In this document: positions 2,973 to 43,950 of the stretch, piece by piece
Layout of the letters: the number at the start of each line of letters is the position of its first letter
Numbering within the stretch: the stretch's first letter is position 1
Origin: Phycisphaerales bacterium
GTDB lineage: Bacteria > Planctomycetota > Phycisphaerae > UBA1845
Direction: 5' to 3'
DNA: 49,544 nucleotides
Assembly (NCBI GenBank): GCA_013140575.1
Contig: JABFSN010000022.1
Location: forward strand, 1-49,544
Position numbers and translations under genes: made by a program
The notes under the pieces: generated by a model
Told to the model about the DNA's origin: nothing
What the model saw: the letters and a program-made list of their open reading frames with translations, nothing else
Database searches by the model: none

Positions 2973-3388
2973 AACTTCTCGCCAACGCACACGTCAGCCG
3001 TGCGATTCTCGAATTCCTGAAGTCGCAAGCACTACAACGCCATGAGCGGGTCTCCGGTCATGGCTTCTTTCGCCCCGCTGGGGCTGGTTTTGCGTCGGGG
3101 ACAATTCCGGGGGTGTCGTCCGCTGTCGCGGACGACACCCCCGGCTATTGACTGCCGCCCCTTCGGGGCTACTGACTATCGCCCCTTTGGGCAACGCCGT
3201 GAACTGAGCGCCCGAAACGCGTTTGAACGCAGGTAGCGCCCGCAGGTTTCGACGCCGAAACGGGTTCGACCGCTCGCCCCGCGATTCTGAAAGAGCATTG
3301 GTCGGCGGTCGAACGGAGCGCGGTCGGGCACTTCGTGGTGGTGACTAACCGCCGCGTGCGGCGGTCGCCGCTTCCGCCCACGACCTAA
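2969..3388 (+). pseudogene. Disrupted DUF5615-like (PIN-like) toxin
   Basis: The 5' part encodes MKLLANAHVSRAILEFLKSQ, a typical DUF5615 N-terminus. After about 20 codons the sequence turns into a palindromic intergenic repeat (about 3071-3192) that carries in-frame stops. Towards the end the same frame resumes as DAETGSTARPAILKEHWSAV followed by GHFVVVTNRRVRRSPLP and TAA at 3386-3388, which matches the usual end of this toxin family. The two remnants therefore flank an inserted or substituted repeat and most of the middle of the protein is missing. Start GTG overlaps the antitoxin stop. Inferred to be non-functional. Confidence 0.7.
3071..3192. repeat. Three-palindrome repeat (CGCCCCGCTGGGGCTG family), copy 1
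   Basis: Contains CCCCGCTGGGG, then GGGGGTGTCGTCC/GGACGACACCCCC as a 13-base stem, then GCCCCTTCGGGGC and CGCCCCTTTGGGC. The order and flanking words (CCCCCGGCTATTGACTG, CGCCCC) recur at 43848-43950. This copy lies inside the broken toxin gene. Confidence 0.7.
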
Positions 3389-3835: not shown

Positions 3836-3945
3836 CACGGGCAAGCGAGTACGCTTGCCCGTGCCACCCAAAAGAGCGTGCCACCCAAGAAAGCGTGCCA
3901 TCCCAAACCGGGTGCAAGCCATAAAAGCGTGCCACCCGGATCACA
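3836..3945. repeat. GCCCGTGCCACC repeat cluster with a 12-base hairpin
   Basis: CACGGGCAAGCG and CGCTTGCCCGTG (3836-3863) form a perfect 12-base stem with an AGTA loop, followed by three imperfect GCGTGCCACCC units. Related words occur at 16793-16923 and 23921-23959. It lies between decayed hicB and the pyrophosphatase; there is no T-run, so I do not call it a terminator. Confidence 0.6.
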
Positions 3946-9195: not shown

Positions 9196-9402
9196 TTTGG
9201 GAATTCTCCAACGACGCCGTGGAGTATATACGTGAAGCGATCGCGGAAATAAAGGGACCCGGGCGAGATAGTCACACGCGATGGATTACGCGGAGAATGT
9301 TGGAATCGGGGGAAGGGCCTCTCGCGCCAGGAGACACGATCGTGCTGAACGCCATCGGCGAGGAAAAAAGGCGCGGGATCGGACGCGGTGACCAGCGGGT
9401 TC

Positions 9403-9521
9403 CGTCCGCCCTCCGGGCGGCGGTAATGGAGGGGTTGTTCTCCAGGGACTGAAGTCCCTGGCTAAAATCGTGCGCCCTCCGGGCGAAGATTCGCGCGTCG
9501 TGATGGAATCGGTTTCCCTAT
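9403..9521 (+). repeat. REP-like three-palindrome element, copy A
   Basis: Order: CCGCCCTCCGGGCGG, then after about 25 bases CCAGGGACTGAAGTCCCTGG, then GCTAAAATCGT and CGCCCTCCGGGCG. The 3' tail TGATGGAATCGGTTTCCC is shared with copy D at 22827-22946. It ends close to the stop codon of the minus-strand gene at 9535. The 200 bases before it (9196-9402) show no gene I can support. Confidence 0.8.
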
Positions 9522-14190: not shown

Positions 14191-14270
14191 CCGATTCTCC
14201 CCGCACTTCACGACGGATGGTCCGGCACTGTCCGAATTGGTCCGGCACGGTCCCGCGACTGGTTGTTCCC

Positions 14271-14359
14271 CGCCCGGAGGGCGGACGATCTTAGCCAGGG
14301 ACTTCAGTCCCTGGACGTCCGTCCCCATGTCTCCCCCGCCCGGAGGGCGGACGGACGCT
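14271..14359 (-). repeat. REP-like three-palindrome element, copy B (3' side of the transposase)
   Basis: On the minus strand: CGTCCGTCCGCCCTCCGGGC, spacer, CCAGGGACTGAAGTCCCTGG, CTAAGATCGT, CCGCCCTCCGGGCGG. It starts at the stop codon of the transposase, whose final TAG falls within the word TAGCGTCCG that is also found at the end of copy C. Confidence 0.85.
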
Positions 14360-14810: not shown

Positions 14811-14820
14811 CACCCGAACT

Positions 14821-14903
14821 CGTCCGCCCTCCGGGCGGATATGGATAAGGGACCGACATCCAGGGACTGAAGTCCCTGGCTAATAGCGTCCGCCCTCCGG
14901 GCG
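14821..14903 (+). repeat. REP-like three-palindrome element, copy C (5' side of the transposase)
   Basis: CGTCCGCCCTCCGGGCGG, spacer of about 22 bases, CCAGGGACTGAAGTCCCTGG, CTAATAGCGT, CCGCCCTCCGGGCG. It lies directly upstream of the transposase start and is inverted relative to copy B. Confidence 0.85.
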
Positions 14904-14992
14904 AAAATCAACCTACGCCGCGCGACAAAGAACGAAGATCTCCAGAAAGTTCATGCACAATCCGTCCGTAACTTACGAACAACGCCCTTCCC

Positions 14993-15027: not shown

Positions 15028-16791
15028 CTACGACGGAAACTGGAAATCAATCACCTGCATCTCGACCGTCCGCCGGCCATTGAACTCGTTTACGATGGGC
15101 TCGAACGCGACCCGGCAGCGACGATGATGTTTCAACGGTTCCAGCGCCGACGCCTGACCAAACGCGATGGACTTCATCGCCGACTTGCCGTCGGAAAAGA
15201 CGGCCTGCACGTGCCCGCCGCTTGCGCCGACGGTGCGCGGCTCGTCGGCGAGGGTCACCCAGTCGGTACACAACACCGGTCGCGGGTTGCCCTGACCGAA
15301 GGGGCCCAGCTTGGAGAGGGCGTCGGCCGTGGGCAGGTCCAGCCAGTGTAACGCCACCTCCGCGTCGATCCACAGCTTGCGTTTCAGGTCGGCGCCGGTC
15401 AGGTGGTTGTTCGCCCGATGGGTGAACGCTTCGGTGAAGGCGGTCACCCGGTCGGGCTTGATCTTCAAACCGGCGGCCATCGCGTGCCCGCCGAATTCGA
15501 TCAGATGCTCGCCGCAGGCGGCGAGCGCCTCGACCAGGTTGAAATTCGGAACGCTGCGGGCCGAGCCCTGCCCGATTTCGTCGCCCAGCGAAATCAACAC
15601 CGTCGGACGATGGAACTTGTCCACCAGCCGCGACGCGACGATGCCGATGACCCCCGCGTGCCACCCCTTCTGAGCCAACACCACCGCCCGGCACGCATCT
15701 CCGTTCTGCCGTTTGGCCTCGACCAGCTCCGTCGCCTGCCGCGCGATGCGCCGTTCGGTCGTCTGCCGGGCGCGATTCTGTTCCTCCAAATACAGCGCGA
15801 TCTCGCGGGAGCGGGCCTCGTCGGCACGGGTCAGCAATTCAACGGCCAATCGTGCGTGCCCCATCCGCCCGGCCGCGTTCAGCCGCGGCGCCAACTTGAA
15901 CCCCACGTCGTAGCTGTGCACCTTGCCGTTGGCCAGACCGGCCGATTCCATCAGCACGCGCAACCCGACGAACGGCGTCGACGTCAACCGCGCCAGTCCA
16001 TGCCGTACAATGACCCGGTTCTCGCCGATCAACGGAACGACGTCGGCCACCGTCCCCAGTGCGGCCAGCGCCAACGCGTCCGACAGCAACGACCGGTACG
16101 GCTCGTTCACCCGTTGCGAACCGCATATCGCCTGCGCGATCGCCCACCCCAGCTTGAACGCCACCCCGGCCCCGCACAGATGTTCATTCGGATATTGCCC
16201 GCCGACCGTGGGATGTACGATGGTCACGCCCTCGGGAAGCGTGTCGCCCGACTGGTGGTGATCGGTGATGATGATTTCCGCGCCGGCCGACCGCACGGCG
16301 GCGGCGGCCTCGACGGCCGTCACGCCGCAATCGACGGTGACGATCAGTTGGGCGCCGTCCGCGACCAGTCCCCGGACGGCTTCCACGTTCACGCCGTAAC
16401 CCTCATCGAGCCGATGGGGCACGTAGAACGAGACGTCGGCGCCGGCGGCGCGCAGCACATGCCACAAAATGGCCAGCCCGGTCATGCCGTCGACGTCGTA
16501 GTCGCCGTAGATGACGATCTTGCGGCGATCACGAACCGCGGCCGCGATGGCCGCCGCCGCGACCGTCGCCCCGGGCAACAATTCCGGTGGATACAATTCG
16601 CCCAATTGGGGATCGAGAAACGTGCTGGGCCGGGCCGACCCGTGCACGCCGCGATTGAACAGCAGCTGCGCGATCAGCGGATGCACGCGCCACCGCTCCG
16701 CGGCCGCGTCGCGCTCCACCCACGCCGGCCGTATGATCCATTCACGAATCAAGATGCTCGATACCCTCGGTGAATGCCGACCGCGTAGCAT
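15028..16791 (-). CDS. recJ: Single-stranded-DNA-specific exonuclease RecJ
   Basis: 587 residues from ATG 16791. RecJ is a 5'-3' exonuclease on single-stranded DNA in recombination and mismatch/base repair. DHH-family motifs are complete: IYGDYDVDGMTG (metal-binding Asp residues), TVDCGV, and IITDHHQSGD. The DHHA1 motif FGGHAMAAGLKI follows in the C-terminal half, then an OB-like end. The frame stays open for 43 more codons upstream, but those are made by a GGGCATCC-type repeat and are not credible as protein. TTG 16752 (with GAGGG upstream, giving IREWIIRPAW) is an alternative start and may be the true one. It is followed upstream by metK on the same strand, separated by repeats. Confidence 0.95.
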   Translation of the reverse strand: MLRGRHSPRVSSILIREWIIRPAWVERDAAAERWRVHPLIAQLLFNRGVHGSARPSTFLDPQLGELYPPELLPGATVAAAAIAAAVRDRRKIVIYGDYDVDGMTGLAILWHVLRAAGADVSFYVPHRLDEGYGVNVEAVRGLVADGAQLIVTVDCGVTAVEAAAAVRSAGAEIIITDHHQSGDTLPEGVTIVHPTVGGQYPNEHLCGAGVAFKLGWAIAQAICGSQRVNEPYRSLLSDALALAALGTVADVVPLIGENRVIVRHGLARLTSTPFVGLRVLMESAGLANGKVHSYDVGFKLAPRLNAAGRMGHARLAVELLTRADEARSREIALYLEEQNRARQTTERRIARQATELVEAKRQNGDACRAVVLAQKGWHAGVIGIVASRLVDKFHRPTVLISLGDEIGQGSARSVPNFNLVEALAACGEHLIEFGGHAMAAGLKIKPDRVTAFTEAFTHRANNHLTGADLKRKLWIDAEVALHWLDLPTADALSKLGPFGQGNPRPVLCTDWVTLADEPRTVGASGGHVQAVFSDGKSAMKSIAFGQASALEPLKHHRRCRVAFEPIVNEFNGRRTVEMQVIDFQFPS

Positions 16792-16792
16792 G

Positions 16793-16923
16793 GCAGTCCC
16801 GGCCATGTGGCATGGGCGTCTCGCCCATGAATCCACGGGCAGGATGCCCGTGCCACCTCCCGCGCCACCGTTCGTGGCACGGGCGTGTTGCCCGTGATGA
16901 ATCATGGGCAGGATGCCCATGCC
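16793..16923. repeat. Array of four CATGGGC/CACGGGC hairpins
   Basis: Arms at 16811-16817/16823-16829, 16834-16840/16846-16852, 16878-16884/16890-16896 and 16903-16909/16915-16921, each seven bases with a five-base loop (for example CATGGGCGTCTCGCCCATG). GTGCCACC words link them, as in the cluster at 3836-3945. It fills the gap between recJ and metK. Confidence 0.8.
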
Positions 16924-16933
16924 ACCGCCCGAT

Positions 16934-18160
16934 CTAAACCGCCACCGCCGATTTCAGCGCCCCGCGCAGCGCCGCGGCCTTGTCCGTTGCTTCCCATGTG
17001 AAGTCCGCGCCGCTTCGCCCGAAATGGCCGTGTCGCGCCGTCTGCAGGTAGATGGGGCGACGTAGATTCAGGTGGTCAATGATCGCCCGCGGCGTCAGCG
17101 GGAAATGTTCCCGCACGCATGCGCTGATGGTCTCGTCGGACACCTTCCCGGTGCCCTCCGTGCTGACGAACACGCTGGTCGGCTCGGCCACGCCGATGGC
17201 GTACGACAATTGCACCTCGCAGACGTCAGCCAGCCGGGCGGCGACGATGTTCTTGGCGATGTACCGGGCCATGTACGCGGCCGATCGGTCCACCTTGGTC
17301 GGATCCTTGCCCGAAAACGCACCGCCGCCGTGCCGCCCGCGCCCGCCGTAGGTGTCCACGATGATCTTGCGTCCGGTCAGTCCGGTGTCGCCGTGGGGTC
17401 CGCCGATCTCGAACCGGCCCGTCGGATTGACGTGCAGTTTGATGTCGTCGTGCCACCATTTGTCACCCAACACCGGCTTGAAGATGTGCTCGATGACCTC
17501 GCGCTTCAGGTCCTTCTGCCGGTCGTTCCACGACTTGTCGTGCTGGGTGGACAACACCAGCGTATCCACGCGGACCGGCTTCAGGCCGTCGTATTCCACC
17601 GTCACCTGCGACTTCGCGTCGGGGCGGATGCCCTTGATGATGCCCTTGCGGCGCACGTCGGCCTGCCGCTCGACCAGACGATGGGCCAGGTGAATGGGCA
17701 GCGGCATCAACTCCGGCGTCTCGTTGCACGCGAATCCGAACATCATCCCCTGATCGCCCGCCCCTTCGCGGTCCACGCCCATGGCGATGTCCGGCGACTG
17801 CTTCTTGATCGAGGTCAGCACCGAGCACGACTCGAAATCGAATGCCATGTCCGCCGACGTGTAGCCGATCTCCTTGATGGTCTCGCGGACAACATCCGGG
17901 ATCTCCACGTAGGCCTTGGTGGTCACCTCGCCGGCTACCACCACCATGCCCGTCGACACCATGGTTTCGCACGCCACCCGCGACATCGGGTCCTGCGCCA
18001 ACATGGCATCCAGCACGGCGTCGGAAATCTGGTCGGCCACCTTGTCGGGATGGCCCATGGACACCGACTCCGAAGTGAACAAATGCCGTTCGTGATTCGT
18101 CGAGCTTTGCACGCGATCGTCCTTCCCAGCCCATTTTTTGGGCATCGCTGGCGGCCCCAT
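16934..18160 (-). CDS. metK: S-adenosylmethionine synthetase
   Basis: 408 residues. It makes S-adenosylmethionine from methionine and ATP in the cytoplasm. Signature blocks: [20 protein letters not shown] (ATP and Mg2+ contacts), [56 protein letters not shown] (P-loop-like) and [20 protein letters not shown]. Length is close to the usual 380-400. ATG 18160 with AGGA upstream is chosen; an ATG five codons further in is possible. It is divergent from the Fur-family gene. I looked for a SAM riboswitch in the leader and found no recognisable fold or terminator. Confidence 0.97.
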
Positions 18161-22045: not shown

Positions 22046-22510
22046 CCGGCAGTCAAACGCATCAACTCGCCCACCGGGCACGCGGTGGGCCAACCCGCCG
22101 CCACGCCGAACTGGCGTGCGCGTTCAGCGTCCCTTGGGGACGCTGTGAATGTAGCCCAGCACTTCGTATGTGATTAGCGACGAAAACCGCGATCAGAGCC
22201 GTGGGCGCAAGCCCACGGTTGCATGATTCGCCCGGCAACCCCGCCGATCGCGTCACCGGGCTGGCGTCCCGTGCTCCGAAAACAGGGGCAGACGCTAATC
22301 ACGTACAGCACTTCAGTGCTGGGATGACGGCGCCGCCGGGGAGGCGTAGTCCCGAAGGGACGGCTGAAGCGCCGCGCGGGAATTCAGCCGTCCCTTCGGG
22401 ACTCGGCGCCCTCGGGTCACCGGCGTACCCCGCGTTGAAACGCGGGGCTACATTCAGGCCTGCCTCCGGCAGGCAACCCACGGAGACGCCAAACACGTAC
22501 ACAGAGGCGG
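22046..22510. repeat. Cluster of at least six palindromes after prpC
   Basis: This 465-base gap holds no gene. Hairpins: CAGCGTCC/GGACGCTG (22125-22145), CCGTGGGC/GCCCACGG (22200-22218), AGCACT/AGTGCT (22307-22320), a perfect 20-base stem (22349-22368 with 22383-22402, left arm GTCCCGAAGGGACGGCTGAA), CCCCGCG/CGCGGGG (about 22428-22447) and GCCTGCC/GGCAGGC (22458-22474). The words between them (for example GCTACATTCAGG) are of the interspersed-repeat kind. No T-runs, so not simple terminators. Confidence 0.75.
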
Positions 22511-22737: not shown

Positions 22738-22826
22738 AGAACATCTCCGGACTTGAGCGTGCATCCATACGCTCGTTGTTCGCGCGACGCGACTAAATGA
22801 GAACTCACAAAAGGGAAACTGGGTTT

Positions 22827-22946
22827 CGTGCGCCCTCCGGGCGGGAGTTGGACAGGGGCTGTCGTCCAGGGACTGAAGTCCCTGGCTAAAATCGTGCGCC
22901 CTCCGGGCGAAGAAAAACGCGCCATGATGGAATCGGTTTCCCCATT
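22827..22946 (+). repeat. REP-like three-palindrome element, copy D
   Basis: CGCCCTCCGGGCGG, spacer, CCAGGGACTGAAGTCCCTGG, CTAAAATCGT, GCGCCCTCCGGGCGAAG, then the tail TGATGGAATCGGTTTCCCCA that copy A also carries. It ends 12 bases before the stop codon of the GH130 gene. Confidence 0.85.
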
Positions 22947-34961: not shown

Positions 34962-37376
34962 TCAATCGCCCGGTGCCATCGCCTCTTCCGCCTCTTCGCG
35001 CAGCGCGTTCAGGTCCGACGCGCGGTCGAACCACAGGATCTCGCGGTCGGCGTTCACGTGGTAATCGTCGGGATTCGCCAGTTCCGCGGGCCACGCGGCG
35101 ATCGCGGCGTCGTACGATCGTTTCGCGTCGTCGAATCGCCCCAGCCTCGCGTAGGCGATGGAGTTGATCAGATGGCCAAACGACGGAAAGCGGTCCATCT
35201 CATTCGCCTTCCCGGCGTGTTCGATAGCGCCGTCCGCTCCGTCGGGGTCTTCGAATTTGCCGGCGCGGAGATTGGCCAGCGCCCGGACGCGATGGGCTCG
35301 GCCATCTCCGACCGGCATGTGCTGGATGGCGTTCCGCGAATGAAAAACAGCATCTTCGAGGCTTCTTGAGCCGTTTTCGGAGAGATGGAAACTCGCCAGT
35401 AACAACGACGCGCCCTTATTCGCGGAGTCTCGCGCCAACGCATTTTCCAACGACTGCTCGCACGCCCGATCGTTGAGGTACCACTGGATCGTGCCCAGCG
35501 TCCGCCACGCACCCGCGGAGCCCTGCAATCCCTCGCGCGACCGGTCGAAACGGTCCACGGCCATGGCGCATTCAAGAGCCTCCGTCCATCGCTTCTGTAA
35601 TGCCAGCACCCGGGCCAGATTACTGGACGCAAAGAAAAAGTCGTCGTAGTCGTCGCCTTGGCGCAATCGATGTTGCTCGTCCAATGCAACGGCCTGGCGC
35701 AAGACCGCTTCCGCCTCTTTCAGTCTGCCCGTTAGATAGAGGGCCACCCCTTTGTTGTTCAAGACATTCAGGTTTTGCGGATCGATGGCCAACGCGCGAT
35801 CCACGTACCGCAGCGATTCGTTCAGTATCGACGGGTCGGAGGTTGTCCGCGGACTCTGATTGTATTTGTCGATCTTGACGCTGGCTAGGTTGCCGAACGC
35901 CTTCTCATTGTCCGGATCGAGACTGAGACACTCGGCGTAGTGCCGCTCCGCGGCGTCCCAGTCCTTCTTGATCTGCGACAGTCGACCTGATTCCAGAAAC
36001 TGCTCCACGCGGGCGGCCACGCGCATCCGTTCCACCACCACGATTCCGACTCCGGTTGCCACCACCAGGGCGATCGCGGCGATCGCGGTGACCAGTGCCT
36101 TGTGCCGCCGCGCATACTTCATGGCTCGGCGAATGGGGCCGGGGCGCTTGGCCGCGATGGGCAGGTCGCTGATGAATCGCCGCAGATCCTCGCACATGGC
36201 CCGGGCCGTGTCGTAGCGCGCGTCCGGCGCCTTCTCCAGCGCCTTCAGACAGATGGTCTCCAGTTCCGGCGGCACGGTGTGCACCATCTTGTGCGGGGGC
36301 GACGGCTCCCGGCTGATGATGGCGCTCAGAATCTGCCTGTCGTCGTCGCCGGGGAAGGCCGGCTGGTAGGTGAGCAGCTCGTACATCGTCGCGCCCAGCG
36401 AATAAATGTCCGTGCGATGATCCACCGGCACCCGGCGGGCCATGGCCTGTTCCGGGCTCAAGTAGCGCACCGTTCCCAGCAGCGCCCCGGTCAGCGTGAT
36501 GGAATCCTCGTCCATGCTCTTGGCCAGACCGAAGTCGCCCAGCATCACCCGCCCGTCGGCCGACAATATGATGTTCGCGGGCTTGATGTCCCGGTGAATG
36601 ATCCCCTCGCCGTGGGCATAGTGCAGCGCGTCGGCCGCGTCCGCCATCCACCGCGCCACCTGGCGGTAATACAAACGGGCCCGCGCCGGCGTGGACACGT
36701 CGGCCGCGTGCACCGCCGCCGCTGACGGTTCCTGAATCTCCTGCGCCGACGGTGTCCCCAATGTGGTCTCGCGGAGCAGCGCCGCCAATCGCGACGGCGA
36801 CGCCGACGCCGCGTTGTGGGCCGCGAACTGCCGCACCAGCACGTTCAGCGGCTTGCCCGTGATCAATTCCATCGCGTAGTAGTAGCCGCCGTGCGATTCG
36901 CCGAAGTCGTAAATGGGAATGATGTGCGTGTGGTGCAGCCGGGCGGCCGCGTGCGCCTCGCGGCGGAACCGCGAGACGGCCGACGGACTGGCGGCGCCGA
37001 TCACCGCGGGCAGCACTTTCAACGCGACCGTGCGTTTCAACTTGTTCTGCACGGCGCGATAGACCACCCCCATCCCCCCCTGACCGAGGGCCGAGACGAT
37101 CTCGTAGCCATCGATCCGCGGAAGATGGTCGCGCGAAATCGGGCGATCGCCCTTCTCCATGATGTCCGCCGCGTCCGGCGATTCCACCGCTTCGGCGCGC
37201 GAACGCAGCAGCGGCCTGGCCCGGTCCAGGAAGTCCTGATCCTTGCGGAAGTGTTCAAACGCCGTACGGCATTTGGGGCACGTTTCCAGATGACGCGCGA
37301 CGCCCGTAGCCGCCACGTCGGCCAGCCGGCCCATGCGAAAGTGTTCAAAATCGGTAAGCGTCAGACAGGATGACAA
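34962..37376 (-). CDS. PknB-type Ser/Thr protein kinase with TPR domain
   Basis: 804 residues from TTG 37376 (GGTGGAGG upstream). The N-terminus has an anti-sigma-like zinc-binding bit HLETCPKC. The kinase domain spans about 88-370: glycine loop LGQGGMGVVYRAV, Lys in TVALKVLP, catalytic IIHRDIKPANIIL, GDFGLAKSM and YLSPEQAMARRVPVDHRTDI. A membrane segment lies near 410-435 (HKALVTAIAAIALVVATGVG). From about 445 there are TPR units (KKDWDAAERHYAECLSLDPD, LAIDPQNLNVLNNKGVALYL). It follows the sigma-factor gene by 128 bases, a pairing known for planctomycete ECF sigma factors. It probably senses through the TPR half and controls the sigma factor, which is inference. Confidence 0.93.
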   Translation of the reverse strand: MSSCLTLTDFEHFRMGRLADVAATGVARHLETCPKCRTAFEHFRKDQDFLDRARPLLRSRAEAVESPDAADIMEKGDRPISRDHLPRIDGYEIVSALGQGGMGVVYRAVQNKLKRTVALKVLPAVIGAASPSAVSRFRREAHAAARLHHTHIIPIYDFGESHGGYYYAMELITGKPLNVLVRQFAAHNAASASPSRLAALLRETTLGTPSAQEIQEPSAAAVHAADVSTPARARLYYRQVARWMADAADALHYAHGEGIIHRDIKPANIILSADGRVMLGDFGLAKSMDEDSITLTGALLGTVRYLSPEQAMARRVPVDHRTDIYSLGATMYELLTYQPAFPGDDDRQILSAIISREPSPPHKMVHTVPPELETICLKALEKAPDARYDTARAMCEDLRRFISDLPIAAKRPGPIRRAMKYARRHKALVTAIAAIALVVATGVGIVVVERMRVAARVEQFLESGRLSQIKKDWDAAERHYAECLSLDPDNEKAFGNLASVKIDKYNQSPRTTSDPSILNESLRYVDRALAIDPQNLNVLNNKGVALYLTGRLKEAEAVLRQAVALDEQHRLRQGDDYDDFFFASSNLARVLALQKRWTEALECAMAVDRFDRSREGLQGSAGAWRTLGTIQWYLNDRACEQSLENALARDSANKGASLLLASFHLSENGSRSLEDAVFHSRNAIQHMPVGDGRAHRVRALANLRAGKFEDPDGADGAIEHAGKANEMDRFPSFGHLINSIAYARLGRFDDAKRSYDAAIAAWPAELANPDDYHVNADREILWFDRASDLNALREEAEEAMAPGD

Positions 37377-37504: not shown

Positions 37505-38080
37505 CTAGAATTCATCCCCAATCAATTCCGACAGCTCGCCGCGCAGCCGCTTGGTGACCCGCGATTTCGCCAGGTACACCTGATTGGCCGTCATCCCCAG
37601 CGTCTCGCAAATCTCCTCCACCGGCCACTCCTTCAGCACGTAGAGCTTGAACGCGGCCACCGTGGTCGGCGAAAAATCCGATTCGAGTCGTTTGAGACAA
37701 TACGCCAGATGTTCCTGCAACCAATGCCGGTCCCACTCCGCGGTCGCGTCCTCGGTCGGCGCCGCGAGATCCCGCCACTCGCCGCTGTCCGCCTGCCGGG
37801 CACGCTTCTTCCGCAGACGGTCCGCGATTTGGTGCGAAACATGGGTGAAAAGATAATTCTTAAAGGAACCCTTGTCGCTGGAATAGTCAAATGTGGCCAT
37901 GGTCCGCGAGAGCGTGTTCATGCACTCCTGGGCGACATCGTCGGCCTCATCGGCACCCAAGCCGCGGGAGCGAGCAAATCGGCCGAGAAGTGGAGAATAC
38001 AGCTTAAAGAATTCTTGCCATGCCTTCTGATCGTCGGCGTGCCGGACGCGTAACAAAAGCGACGGTCGGGTGGTATCCAT
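37505..38080 (-). CDS. ECF-like sigma-70 family factor
   Basis: 191 residues from ATG 38080; a longer start at 38158 is less likely. Region 2: WQEFFKLYSPLLGRFARSRG, ADDVAQECMNTLSRTM, DYSSDKGSFKNYLFTHVSHQ. Region 4: PTTVAAFKLYVLKEWPVEEI, ETLGMTANQVYLAKSRVTKR. The -35-reading helix is clear. Length and layout suit an ECF factor. The kinase downstream is the likely controller, as in planctomycete sigma/STK pairs, and no classical anti-sigma gene is present. The upstream region (38081 on) contains unusual RNA-like structures. Confidence 0.9.
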   Translation of the reverse strand: MDTTRPSLLLRVRHADDQKAWQEFFKLYSPLLGRFARSRGLGADEADDVAQECMNTLSRTMATFDYSSDKGSFKNYLFTHVSHQIADRLRKKRARQADSGEWRDLAAPTEDATAEWDRHWLQEHLAYCLKRLESDFSPTTVAAFKLYVLKEWPVEEICETLGMTANQVYLAKSRVTKRLRGELSELIGDEF

Positions 38081-38354
38081 GACGTGAACCGGATCATAGC
38101 ACCGCTTGACGCTGTGGAACAGGGGTCTTCCGCCCGTCAAATTGCGTTCTTGGATCAAGACGCAGAAGTTTGGGGCGAATCCAAAAAAAAACTTTTCGGA
38201 TGAGACAGAATGTCGCCCGCTGACGCGTATCCCCGGTGAACCCCATCGATTGGTCGAGCGGCCGGTCGGATGGGGCGGTGAAGGGTCGACAGGATCGCCA
38301 ATCGTCGGCCGACCGGGTGACAGGTGATGAACCGGTTTTCGACGAAAGTGAATA

Positions 38355-38434
38355 GCCTCGAGGGCGCGGGGCTGTGCTTCTTACCGACTGCCTGCCGGTA
38401 CGAAGGGCGTCATCGAGCTCCGCGCCCTGATCAA
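38355..38434. ncRNA. Candidate structured element 1: long stem with inner hairpin
   Basis: AGGGCGCGGGGCT (38361-38373) pairs with AGCTCCGCGCCCT (38416-38428), 13 pairs with one G-U. Inside, TACCG (38382-38386) pairs with CGGTA (38396-38400), and CTTC (38377-38380) with GAAG (38402-38405). No reading frame here resembles a protein. Strand and expression are unknown; it could also be a DNA-level dyad. Confidence 0.35.
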
Positions 38435-38465
38435 ATGCTGAACGAATGCCTGCCTTCCTCATTGA

Positions 38466-38573
38466 GAGAAAGTGTCCGATGCGTTCGCGCGAGCGAGGGT
38501 GCGTACCCGTCCCCCCTCCGACGGGTTCGGCACTCCTTTCGGGAGCCGTTCGCGCGAACGCTCGCACTTTCCA
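38466..38573. ncRNA. Candidate structured element 2: branched stem with two inner hairpins
   Basis: GAAAGTG (38468-38474) pairs with CACTTTC (38565-38571), and GCGTTCGCGCGA (38481-38492) pairs with TCGCGCGAACGC (38550-38561), 12 pairs without mismatch. Inside the loop, ACCCGTC (38505-38511) pairs with GACGGGT (38520-38526) and CTCC (38533-38536) with GGAG (38542-38545). This multi-branched layout is what a structured RNA shows. It lies only about 30 bases from element 1. The rest of the 38081-38902 gap shows a run of nine A at about 38187 and nothing else I can support. Confidence 0.4.
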
Positions 38574-38902
38574 ACCGCGAGTTGCATTCGTAGTACCATA
38601 AGGATTGAACGACGGTTTCCGGCGCGGCGTCGGCCGCATGAATGAAGAAGTCCCAGCCCGGCCGGCTTTCCCACGGCGCGCGAATGGGCTGTACGAATCA
38701 AGCTCTTCCACTCTTCGCTATTGACGGAAATGCCAAACAGCCGGCCGGCCGCTTAAGGGGGGCAAGCGGACGGTCCGGCATTTTTTACGGACGCGATCCG
38801 TTCGCGAGGCTGAGCCGTTGCGCGCCATTGCGACCGTCGTTCGGCGCGGGGGGAAGCGGCTCCCGGACCGTGCTCACGGACAGCTGTCGGATACACGCGA
38901 GT

Positions 38903-40687
38903 TCAGAAACGCGACGGTTGGTCGATGGAGCGCAGCAGCGAACGGCCTTCGTCGGTTTCGTGGGCGACGATGCAGACGGTTTCCCATGCGACGGCGGCGC
39001 GGTCGAGCAGGCCTACGTTTTCGAGGGCCAGGGCGAGGTTGGCGTGGAGGTCGATGTTTTTGTCGTTTTGGGCGATGGCGGCTTCGTACTCTTCGATGGC
39101 CAGGGCAAATTTTCGGCGATCGGCGAAGATCAAGCCCAGTTGATAGTGCAGTTCCACGTCGCCGGGGTTGTCGCGGAGGGCGCTTTGGAAGACGTGGACC
39201 GCGTCGGCGGCGTCACCGCGTTCGAGCAACGCCAGACCGAGCTTGACGTTGGCCTTTATGTAGTTGCGGTTGATGGCCACCGCGTTCTGGAATGCGGCGA
39301 TGGCGTCGTCGAGGTCGCCGCGCTGGCGCAACAGAAGGCCCACGCGGTAGTGGAGGTCGGCGTGATTAGGGTGGCGGGTGAGCGCCAGGCGGTGGCGGGC
39401 GATTTGCCGGTCGATGACATCGTCGCCGGGCGGGGTGTGTGCGCGGCCGGCGGTCGAGGCATCGTCGTCGTTGAGTTCGGGGTCCGCGGTTGTCGCGGCG
39501 CGCGGATCGACGTCGTCGACGGACGACCGGTTCCCATCGGTTGACGATTGGGGCATCAAGGGGGCGAGCCATTCGTCGGCCTGTTTGCCGGCGGCGATGG
39601 CGAGTTGCAGTTTGGCGACTTCGCTGAACAGCAGGGACGTATTGGGCTCGATGCGCGCGGACAGTTCGATCGTGGACTCGGCGTCGGCGATGCGGCCGGC
39701 CTCGAGCTGGGCGACCGCCAGTCCGACGTACGTGGACAGGTAGCGGTCGTTGATTTCGGCGCCCTTGTTGAACCAGCGGGCGGCGTCTTCGTGAGCGCGA
39801 TAACGGAGGTGAACGGTGCCGATTTTAACGGTGGCTTCCAGGCATTGGGGGTGAATTTCGACGGCGCGTTGGTATTGTTCGAGGGCGCTTTCGTCGTCGC
39901 CGGCGTCGTTGAAGAGATCGCCGAGGCGGAGGTGGTGGTCGGCGAACGCGGGCTCGCGGTCGATCATGGCCTTCATTTCGCGGATGGCATCGTCGAGGCG
40001 ACCGGCTGCACGATGGGTGTCGACGAGGTCGTCACGGGCGCCCCAGTTGTCGGGGTCGATGGCCAGGGCGCGCTGGTAGCGATGGATGGCGTCGTCGAGA
40101 CGGGCGGTGCGATAGTACAGGTTGGCGAGGGCGAGATGGACGGTGATGTCGCCCGGTTCGAGGTCGCTGAGTTTTTCGTAATGGCGGATGGCGCCGTCGA
40201 GGGCGCCCTGCCGGACGTAAATGGCGGCCAGTCGTTCGTGGGCGTTGCGCAGTCCGGGGCAGGCTTGCAACGCGGTGACGTAGAATTCGATGGCGTCGTC
40301 GAGCCGGGCGGCGCGTTCGCTGCAATAGGCGACGGCGAAGAGCAGGGCCGGGTTTTCGGGGTCGTCGTGCAACGCGGTGTGCAGGTGGTCGACGGCGGCG
40401 TCGGTCCGGCCCAGTTCATCCAGCGAGCAGGCGAGTCCGATACGCGAGGATATGTGATTCGGATCAATCATGACGGCGGATTGGAACGCATCGCCGGCGG
40501 CGTGGTCGCGGGTGCGCATCAACCGAACGCCGAGCCGGAAATGGTCGTCGGCGGATGCGTGGGGCGCGGCGGCGGCCGATTCCAATTCGGTGATGGGCGT
40601 CGTTTCGTCGTCGGCGAGGACGCCACGGAACGCGGCGGCGAGCTCGGTCAAAAGGCCCTGGCCCAGGATTTCCAACAGGAAGGACAT
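38903..40687 (-). CDS. TPR-repeat protein (large)
   Basis: 594 residues from ATG 40687. It is built from tetratricopeptide units, with the typical A/G/Y/A pattern: HFRLGVRLMRTRDHAAGDAF, LACSLDELGRTDAAVDHLHT, LANLYYRTARLDDAIHRYQR, LDDAIAAFQNAVAINRNYIK, LGLIFADRRKFALAIEEYEA. About twelve or more units can be counted by eye. A Ser/Thr/Asp-rich linker near residues 385-430 splits the array in two. No signal peptide, membrane segment or catalytic domain was seen. It lies 23 bases downstream of another TPR gene on the same strand. Likely a cytoplasmic scaffold; partners unknown. Confidence 0.9.
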   Translation of the reverse strand: MSFLLEILGQGLLTELAAAFRGVLADDETTPITELESAAAAPHASADDHFRLGVRLMRTRDHAAGDAFQSAVMIDPNHISSRIGLACSLDELGRTDAAVDHLHTALHDDPENPALLFAVAYCSERAARLDDAIEFYVTALQACPGLRNAHERLAAIYVRQGALDGAIRHYEKLSDLEPGDITVHLALANLYYRTARLDDAIHRYQRALAIDPDNWGARDDLVDTHRAAGRLDDAIREMKAMIDREPAFADHHLRLGDLFNDAGDDESALEQYQRAVEIHPQCLEATVKIGTVHLRYRAHEDAARWFNKGAEINDRYLSTYVGLAVAQLEAGRIADAESTIELSARIEPNTSLLFSEVAKLQLAIAAGKQADEWLAPLMPQSSTDGNRSSVDDVDPRAATTADPELNDDDASTAGRAHTPPGDDVIDRQIARHRLALTRHPNHADLHYRVGLLLRQRGDLDDAIAAFQNAVAINRNYIKANVKLGLALLERGDAADAVHVFQSALRDNPGDVELHYQLGLIFADRRKFALAIEEYEAAIAQNDKNIDLHANLALALENVGLLDRAAVAWETVCIVAHETDEGRSLLRSIDQPSRF

Positions 40688-43847: not shown

Positions 43848-43950
43848 CGCCCCGCTGGGGCTGGGCCGATCGTGATCGCCTCCCGGGGGCTCGCGCCCCC
43901 GGCTGTTGACTGTCGCCCCTGCGGGGCTTGGCGTACCCGCCCGTTGGGCT
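43848..43950. repeat. Three-palindrome repeat (CGCCCCGCTGGGGCTG family), copy 2
   Basis: CGCCCCGCTGGGGCTG, then CCCGGGGGCTCGCGCCCCCGG, then CTGTTGACTGTCGCCCCTGC and GGGGCTTGG. Order and words match copy 1 at 3071-3192. The remainder of the 43728-44114 gap holds only the A/T-rich dyad. Confidence 0.7.

Follow-up and report, generated by a model that had tools for sequence, protein, structure and literature searches.

The intergenic region upstream of an ECF-type sigma factor gene in a Phycisphaerales bacterium contains a candidate structured RNA with its own putative ECF-type promoter, and this layout appears to be conserved in four genomes of three genera. The window, that is, the whole 49,544-nucleotide stretch of DNA that was analysed, comes from a genome of 5.05 Mb in 268 contigs. 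Two neighbouring stem-loops in this region had been proposed to represent an unannotated structured RNA, a long leader of the sigma-kinase operon or a replication/packaging-type dyad. The analyses described here support the first of these as a candidate, located on the plus strand and divergent from the sigma gene, and we think it probable that a non-coding RNA is made from a promoter-like footprint under the neighbouring sigma factor. The locus has the following features.

34962-37376, minus strand: Ser/Thr kinase-TPR gene P0002, downstream of the sigma gene (Pfam Pkinase, TPR)
37508-38080, minus strand: ECF-type sigma factor gene P0001, ATG at 38080 (Pfam Sigma70_r2; NCBIfam TIGR02937 sigma70-ECF)
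38093-38120, minus strand: likely sigma-gene promoter, GTTCCA-N16-TATGAT, with a -10-like box that recurs in three orthologs
38183-38191, plus strand: A-tract upstream of the divergent promoter, 6-9 A lying 11-13 nt before GACAG at 4/4 loci
38204-38208, plus strand: -35-like box GACAG, half of the dyad common to four loci
38226-38229, plus strand: -10-like box CGTA, spacer 17 (compare SigW)
38236-38786, plus strand: predicted divergent RNA, from about 38236 (judged from the -10 box) to the T-run
38241-38275, plus strand: first hairpin E0, 15-pair stem
38357-38432, plus strand: element 1 stem-loop, arms 38361-38373 and 38416-38428
38468-38571, plus strand: element 2 stem-loop, arms 38481-38495 and 38547-38561, plus an outer 7-pair stem (38468-38474 with 38565-38571)
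38740-38786, plus strand: terminator-like hairpin followed by ATTTTTT, fold -24.7 to -27.7 kcal/mol

The sigma gene is linked to a Ser/Thr kinase gene, as in the kinase-regulated ECF groups, and on its upstream side lies a TPR gene (P0003, minus strand, ending at 38903). The 820 bp between P0001 and P0003 contain both stem-loops. By Pfam, the neighbours of the sigma gene are the kinase and the TPR gene, and no anti-sigma gene was recognised beside it. The sigma factor keeps the acidic residues DEADD at the expected position of region 2.2, unlike ECF43. The DXXR motif of region 2.4 reads DRLR.

Sigma homologs were searched in 60 relatives, across the order (114 genomes, of which 11 matched at E up to 1e-55) and among the species of GTDB 220 (16 loci). 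For the motif scan, a tblastn query made of the N-terminal 80 residues of the sigma factor set the orientation of the loci. The three closest orthologs found, at 60-62% identity, are those of G020 (L017/L072), G033 (L018/L073) and G003 (L019/L074), all in metagenome-assembled genomes of Phycisphaerae or Planctomycetota. G003 and G033 belong to one genus, and the three orthologs together with our own genome represent three genera. A relative of the kinase adjoins the sigma gene in all three. The DXXR motif is DRMR in both G033 and G003, and G020 has SRKR, without the motif. Between our genome, G020 and the G033/G003 pair, the 700-bp regions upstream of sigma could not be aligned: the top local alignment scores were 20 to 26, values that also occur among 40 shuffles for each comparison. 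With the TPR gene as an anchor, the gene was found on a contig other than that of the sigma ortholog in all five genomes for which loci of both are listed (G003, G007, G013, G014 and G020), so these draft genomes give no sign of a conserved junction.

Both stem-loops are present at the positions originally predicted and are more stable than shuffled sequences. The arms of element 1 are 92% complementary over 13 positions, the odd pair being G-U on the plus strand, and those of element 2 are 93% complementary over 15 positions. Compared with 200 dinucleotide shuffles, element 1 has a z of -3.6 on the plus and -2.9 on the minus strand, and element 2 has -5.9 and -4.1, respectively; the surrounding stretch 38340-38600, folded on both strands in the same way, has -4.4 and -3.5. 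Element 2 had been described as enclosing two separate inner hairpins. On the plus strand this topology (-51.5 kcal/mol) is not the minimum free energy form but lies 9.8 kcal/mol above a nested one (-61.3 kcal/mol). The stretch around hairpin E0 (38210-38345) is no more stable than shuffles (z 0.3). A fold scan of the plus strand of the entire window (1978 windows of 110 nt) gave 23 windows with z < -4 and 13 with z < -5, including strong folds at about 22301, 3076, 16801, 1201, 3801 and, within coding sequence, 41701. Hairpins of equal strength are thus not rare in the window, and fold strength by itself is no proof of function.

The 261-bp region 38340-38600 is single copy in its own genome by blastn and has no match in phage records. 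The 811-bp intergenic region has none in plasmid records and, when queried against 51 family genomes including our own, was found in the own genome only. No Rfam family was found at the locus, gathering and permissive thresholds giving only weak matches far below the gathering scores, and viral contigs contain no relative of the sigma factor. Being single copy and without an Rfam, phage or plasmid match, the elements do not belong to the repeat families of the window, in agreement with the original prediction, and they do not behave as a multi-copy REP-like element. The suggestion of a replication or packaging dyad finds no support in the phage and plasmid records, queried with the 261-bp and 811-bp regions, respectively. 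When the 261-bp region was compared with the 60 relatives, 56 gave a match at E up to 1; these were mostly 16-40 bp long, with a longest of 56, and were read as noise. A single-sequence covariance model of element 1 matched a stem upstream of the G033 sigma gene (21 bits, E 0.047 in 218 kb), which was not counted as homology because a long hairpin of such size can reach that score. The corresponding model of element 2 gave an own-genome match of 24.9 bits that sits in a coding gene, and besides the elements themselves the models matched nothing above this score in the own genome.

The four loci share a promoter-like footprint. An A-tract, GACAG, a spacer of 16 or 17 nt and CGTA are present in our genome, G020, G033 and G003, directed divergently from the sigma gene with GACAG 99-125 nt from it. 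Since the footprint was noticed by eye before testing, it was tested as a dyad. GACAG/CGTA is the only 5-mer-N16/17-4-mer dyad common to the four loci. In controls in which the own and G020 sequences were shuffled and the related pair G033/G003 was kept, a dyad of any kind was common to the loci in 31 of 2000 shuffles when it could lie anywhere, and in none of the 2000 within 40 nt. When the spacing was varied from 8 to 28, the only further dyads were combinations of the A-tract with GACAG at this one site.

Scanned over seven whole genomes, the strict motif occurs at the sigma locus in four (own, G003, G020 and G033); its only other occurrence is intragenic, in our own genome. Its reversed-pattern control was found twice in G020 against one occurrence of the motif, three times in G033 against one and twice in G014 against none, and was absent from the own genome and G003. 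A looser form of the motif lies at the sigma locus in 4/4 genomes, with one extra site each in G003 and G020; its reversed controls numbered 0 in our genome, 0 in G003, 4 in G020 and 4 in G033. Given these controls, the motif count is not above chance everywhere, and the argument rests on position, at the sigma ortholog in each genome; it is this coincidence that appears unlikely to arise by chance. When 41 rows of sigma loci, three of them with less than 300 bp upstream, were scanned, the seven positive rows corresponded to these four loci, three of which are represented by two rows each. The motif is absent from the sigma loci of G013, G014, G007, G017, G053, G079 and G080, whose sigma factors are 47-56% identical, and the order-wide (114 genomes) and GTDB 220 (16 loci) searches added no motif locus; seven of the 16 GTDB 220 loci (L081-L087) gave no tblastn match and fell outside the motif scan.

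For ECF promoters, a -35 box with AAC and a -10 box with CGT have been described (PMC8103513), the SigW promoter is TGAAAC-N16,17-CGTA (PMC2375139), and for one ECF sigma factor the D of the region 2.4 DXXR motif recognises the G of CGTC (PMC3397946). The footprint resembles the SigW promoter in its CGTA box and its spacer of 16-17 nt, both of which fit the ECF type, but differs in having GACAG rather than TGAAAC; GACAG is not a standard -35 box and lacks the AAC typical of ECF promoters (PMC8103513). From the adjacency and the promoter type, the neighbouring sigma factor is most likely the one that recognises the footprint. The flanking gene on the sigma-distal side is co-oriented with the sigma gene at 4/4 loci (own, G020, G033 and G003), which leaves the divergent promoter without an evident gene to serve.

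The A-tract-GACAG-N17-CGTA sequence might instead be a binding site at which a regulator controls the sigma operon, with the stem-loops unrelated to it. Its place 99-125 nt upstream of the sigma gene is a usual one for regulator sites, and its direction is a prediction from sequence. Still, the 16-17 spacing and the CGTA box are those described for ECF promoters (PMC2375139; PMC8103513), the A-tract precedes both boxes when read in the divergent direction and a strong fold lies on the downstream side in 4/4 loci, so that we regard a regulator site as quite unlikely. A second site of the same promoter form was seen in G020 (L103, G020:C22:42690-42733), with a hairpin-like stretch and seven T downstream of it, within about 150 nt; it may belong to a second short RNA or to the leader of the next gene.

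Strong folds accompany the footprint at all four loci and are stronger on the divergent strand. The best z on this strand is -6.1 in our genome, -7.7 in G020, -6.9 in G033 and -8.4 in G003, compared with -5.0, -6.1, -5.1 and -6.4, respectively, on the sigma strand. In four orthologs without the motif, the best z ranges from -2.9 to -3.9, and three of the four also favour the divergent strand, which makes strand preference by itself weak. In a coarser scan of the divergent strand in 32 rows, the motif loci have best z values of -4.5 to -7.6, and four of the 28 others reach -4.5 or lower (Fisher p about 0.002, a flattering value because the weakest motif locus defined the cut; L076 and L102, whose values are identical, probably represent a single record, and the 28 rows may therefore be 27 loci). 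The reversed-pattern controls and the strand preference of the motif-less loci thus weaken two of the supporting arguments. Strong folds were also seen upstream of the sigma genes at L026, L038, L029 and L030; at L026 and L038 these are strong hairpins on the divergent side of sigma paralogs, without the motif.

G033 and G003 contain two strong stems each, as does our genome. In element A, 33 pairs are predicted on the divergent strand, of which 24 are the same in both species, 5 have one-sided and 4 two-sided changes, and none is broken; in element B, 23 of 29 pairs are the same, 6 have one-sided changes and none is broken. The consensus energies, from structures computed on these same two sequences, are -50.5 on the divergent against -31.2 on the sigma strand for element A, and -42.8 against -19.6 for element B. 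Since the RNA cannot be aligned between genera, covariation rests on two species of one genus. Compensatory changes had been suggested as a check, and in these two relatives the pairs of the divergent strand are indeed kept; the sigma-strand structures (25 and 17 pairs) likewise have no broken pair, and that of element A also has four two-sided changes. In a strand-neutral fold, the divergent strand has 24 G-T to 4 A-C pairs, a wobble fraction of 0.86 compared with 0.70 in shuffles, and 2 of 80 shuffles reach 0.86; by this control the strand evidence is partly a matter of composition and was kept as weak.

These data bear on the view that the hairpins have no regulatory role and are intergenic palindromes at the DNA level, or terminators, placed beside the sigma promoter region by chance. 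Equally strong hairpins do exist elsewhere in the window, some of them in repeat families, and 4/28 other sigma upstream rows have z of -4.5 or lower. The elements are nevertheless single copy, strong folds occur at all four footprint loci, and the stems are kept between G033 and G003 with a better consensus energy on one strand; we consider a chance placement of such palindromes unlikely, if the most serious of the alternatives.

The original prediction also offered the elements as a long 5' leader of the sigma-kinase operon. They do lie upstream of the sigma gene, and the sigma strand, too, is more stably folded than shuffled sequence (z -2.9 and -4.1). The likely sigma promoter, however, abuts the start codon: 12 nt separate its -10-like TATGAT (38093-38098) from the ATG (38080), and a -10-like box lies 10 nt before the sigma start codon in G020 (TATGAT), G033 (TAGAAT) and G003 (TAAAAT). 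A promoter scan at the default threshold found nothing in the stretch around 38093-38120, so the assignment of this promoter rests on the recurrence in orthologs. By the predicted promoter, both elements are upstream of the operon start rather than between it and the start codon, where a cis-acting leader or riboswitch would be, and the divergent strand has the better fold at four loci. A leader is therefore probably the wrong reading, and we give it hardly any weight.

The predicted extent of the divergent RNA follows from the promoter and the terminator-like hairpin. A simple terminator scan reported none at 38740-38786, probably because of the loop limit of the scan. Element 2 itself is without a T-run, the terminator-like hairpin lying about 170 nt further on, and on the divergent strand of G033, seven T follow element A. 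The T-run after the hairpin is clear in our genome and G033 and weak in G020 and G003.

Downstream of the divergent promoter, no divergent gene was found, and the four loci have no ORF of at least 30 aa in common. The divergent transcript could in principle be the mRNA of a small protein, since an 89-aa ORF (38324-38593) lies downstream of the promoter in our genome and G033 and G003 have an open frame in common, with products matching at 57.5% over 40 aa. The 89-aa ORF, though, has no Pfam, NCBIfam or plasmid match and matches no ORF of G020, G033 or G003. Within element B, 1 synonymous and 11 nonsynonymous codon changes separate G033 from G003 in this common frame; the corresponding numbers are 1 and 9 in one of the other two frames and 7 and 6, with a stop, in the other. 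By these comparisons a conserved protein-coding frame is absent, as would be expected of an ECF-sigma-dependent small RNA, and a small-protein mRNA seems very unlikely.

According to the favoured model, both stem-loops would be part of a non-coding RNA of ~550 nt. It would be transcribed on the plus strand, divergent from the sigma-kinase operon, from about 38236 to the terminator-like hairpin. A promoter of the ECF type (A-tract, GACAG, 17 nt, CGTA) would drive it and would most likely be read by the adjacent ECF sigma factor; the linked Ser/Thr kinase probably controls the activity of this sigma factor. Activation of the sigma factor by the kinase would lead to synthesis of the RNA, which would serve as a post-transcriptional arm of the response. 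The RNA may act on other RNAs, as the RpoE-dependent MicA and RybB do (PMC8103513), or back on the sigma factor. Element 2 of our genome has a CCCCCCTCC loop, and G033 and G003 have a CCCCTCC stretch before element A; these could pair with ribosome-binding sites. No comparable stretch was seen in G020, so such pairing is only a lead.

MicA, RybB and MicL are small RNAs dependent on RpoE (PMC8103513). The present candidate, predicted from sequence, would resemble them in that an ECF promoter drives a non-coding RNA as a post-transcriptional arm. It would differ in being divergent from and adjoining the sigma gene, in its predicted length of about 200-550 nt and in being the sole non-coding match to the promoter form found in its own genome. 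ECF groups regulated by Ser/Thr kinases (ECF43, 59, 61, 62, 217 and 283) include Planctomycete members (PMC8999054), EcfK-PknS is an ECF sigma factor with a Ser/Thr kinase (PMC13147305), and it has been proposed that kinases of this kind control the ECF groups to which they are linked (PMC8999054; PMC13147305). The sigma gene studied here likewise adjoins a Hanks-type kinase gene. No RNA partner is mentioned in the available parts of those two sources, whereas here there is a candidate one.

The candidate would be a new RNA within a circuit of known type, unusual in its arrangement. To our knowledge, few targets of Planctomycete kinase-paired ECF sigma groups have been described, and no report of a sigma-dependent RNA in Phycisphaerae was found in the literature searched, outside which most subscription papers lie. 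If true, the conserved divergent promoter and its RNA would give a kinase-paired ECF sigma factor a concrete target and a testable promoter sequence. 6S RNA is a long rod-like RNA tied to a sigma factor; the candidate would also be long, rod-like and tied to a sigma factor but differs in having no Rfam match. A bolder idea, which we hold to be a long shot, is that the kinase-linked sigma factor has a dedicated, perhaps sole, target in the adjacent structured RNA, which would feed back on the sigma factor or its RNA polymerase and so take an anti-sigma role.

Several other features were seen in the window. Folds as strong as or stronger than elements 1 and 2 occur at 22301-22435, 3051-3210, 16751-16935 and 1201-1310, two of these four stretches (those at 1201 and 16751) overlapping repeat families of the window. 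The Acido-Lenti-1 RNA (RF01687) matches at 22428-22473 and 43883-43928, both on the plus strand, with 37.7 and 46.7 bits, in a genome of Planctomycete type; a published table gives Acidobacteria and Lentisphaerae for this motif (PMC2864571). A palindromic repeat of ~92 bp (CGCCCTCCGGGCG ... CCAGGGACTGAAGTCCCTGG) is present in four copies, at 9402-9494, 14820-14912 and 22826-22918 and, inverted, at 14262-14353, with 76-83% identity across that length. At 3861-3937, a direct repeat of period 17 (GTGCCACCC-N8) adjoins a long hairpin.
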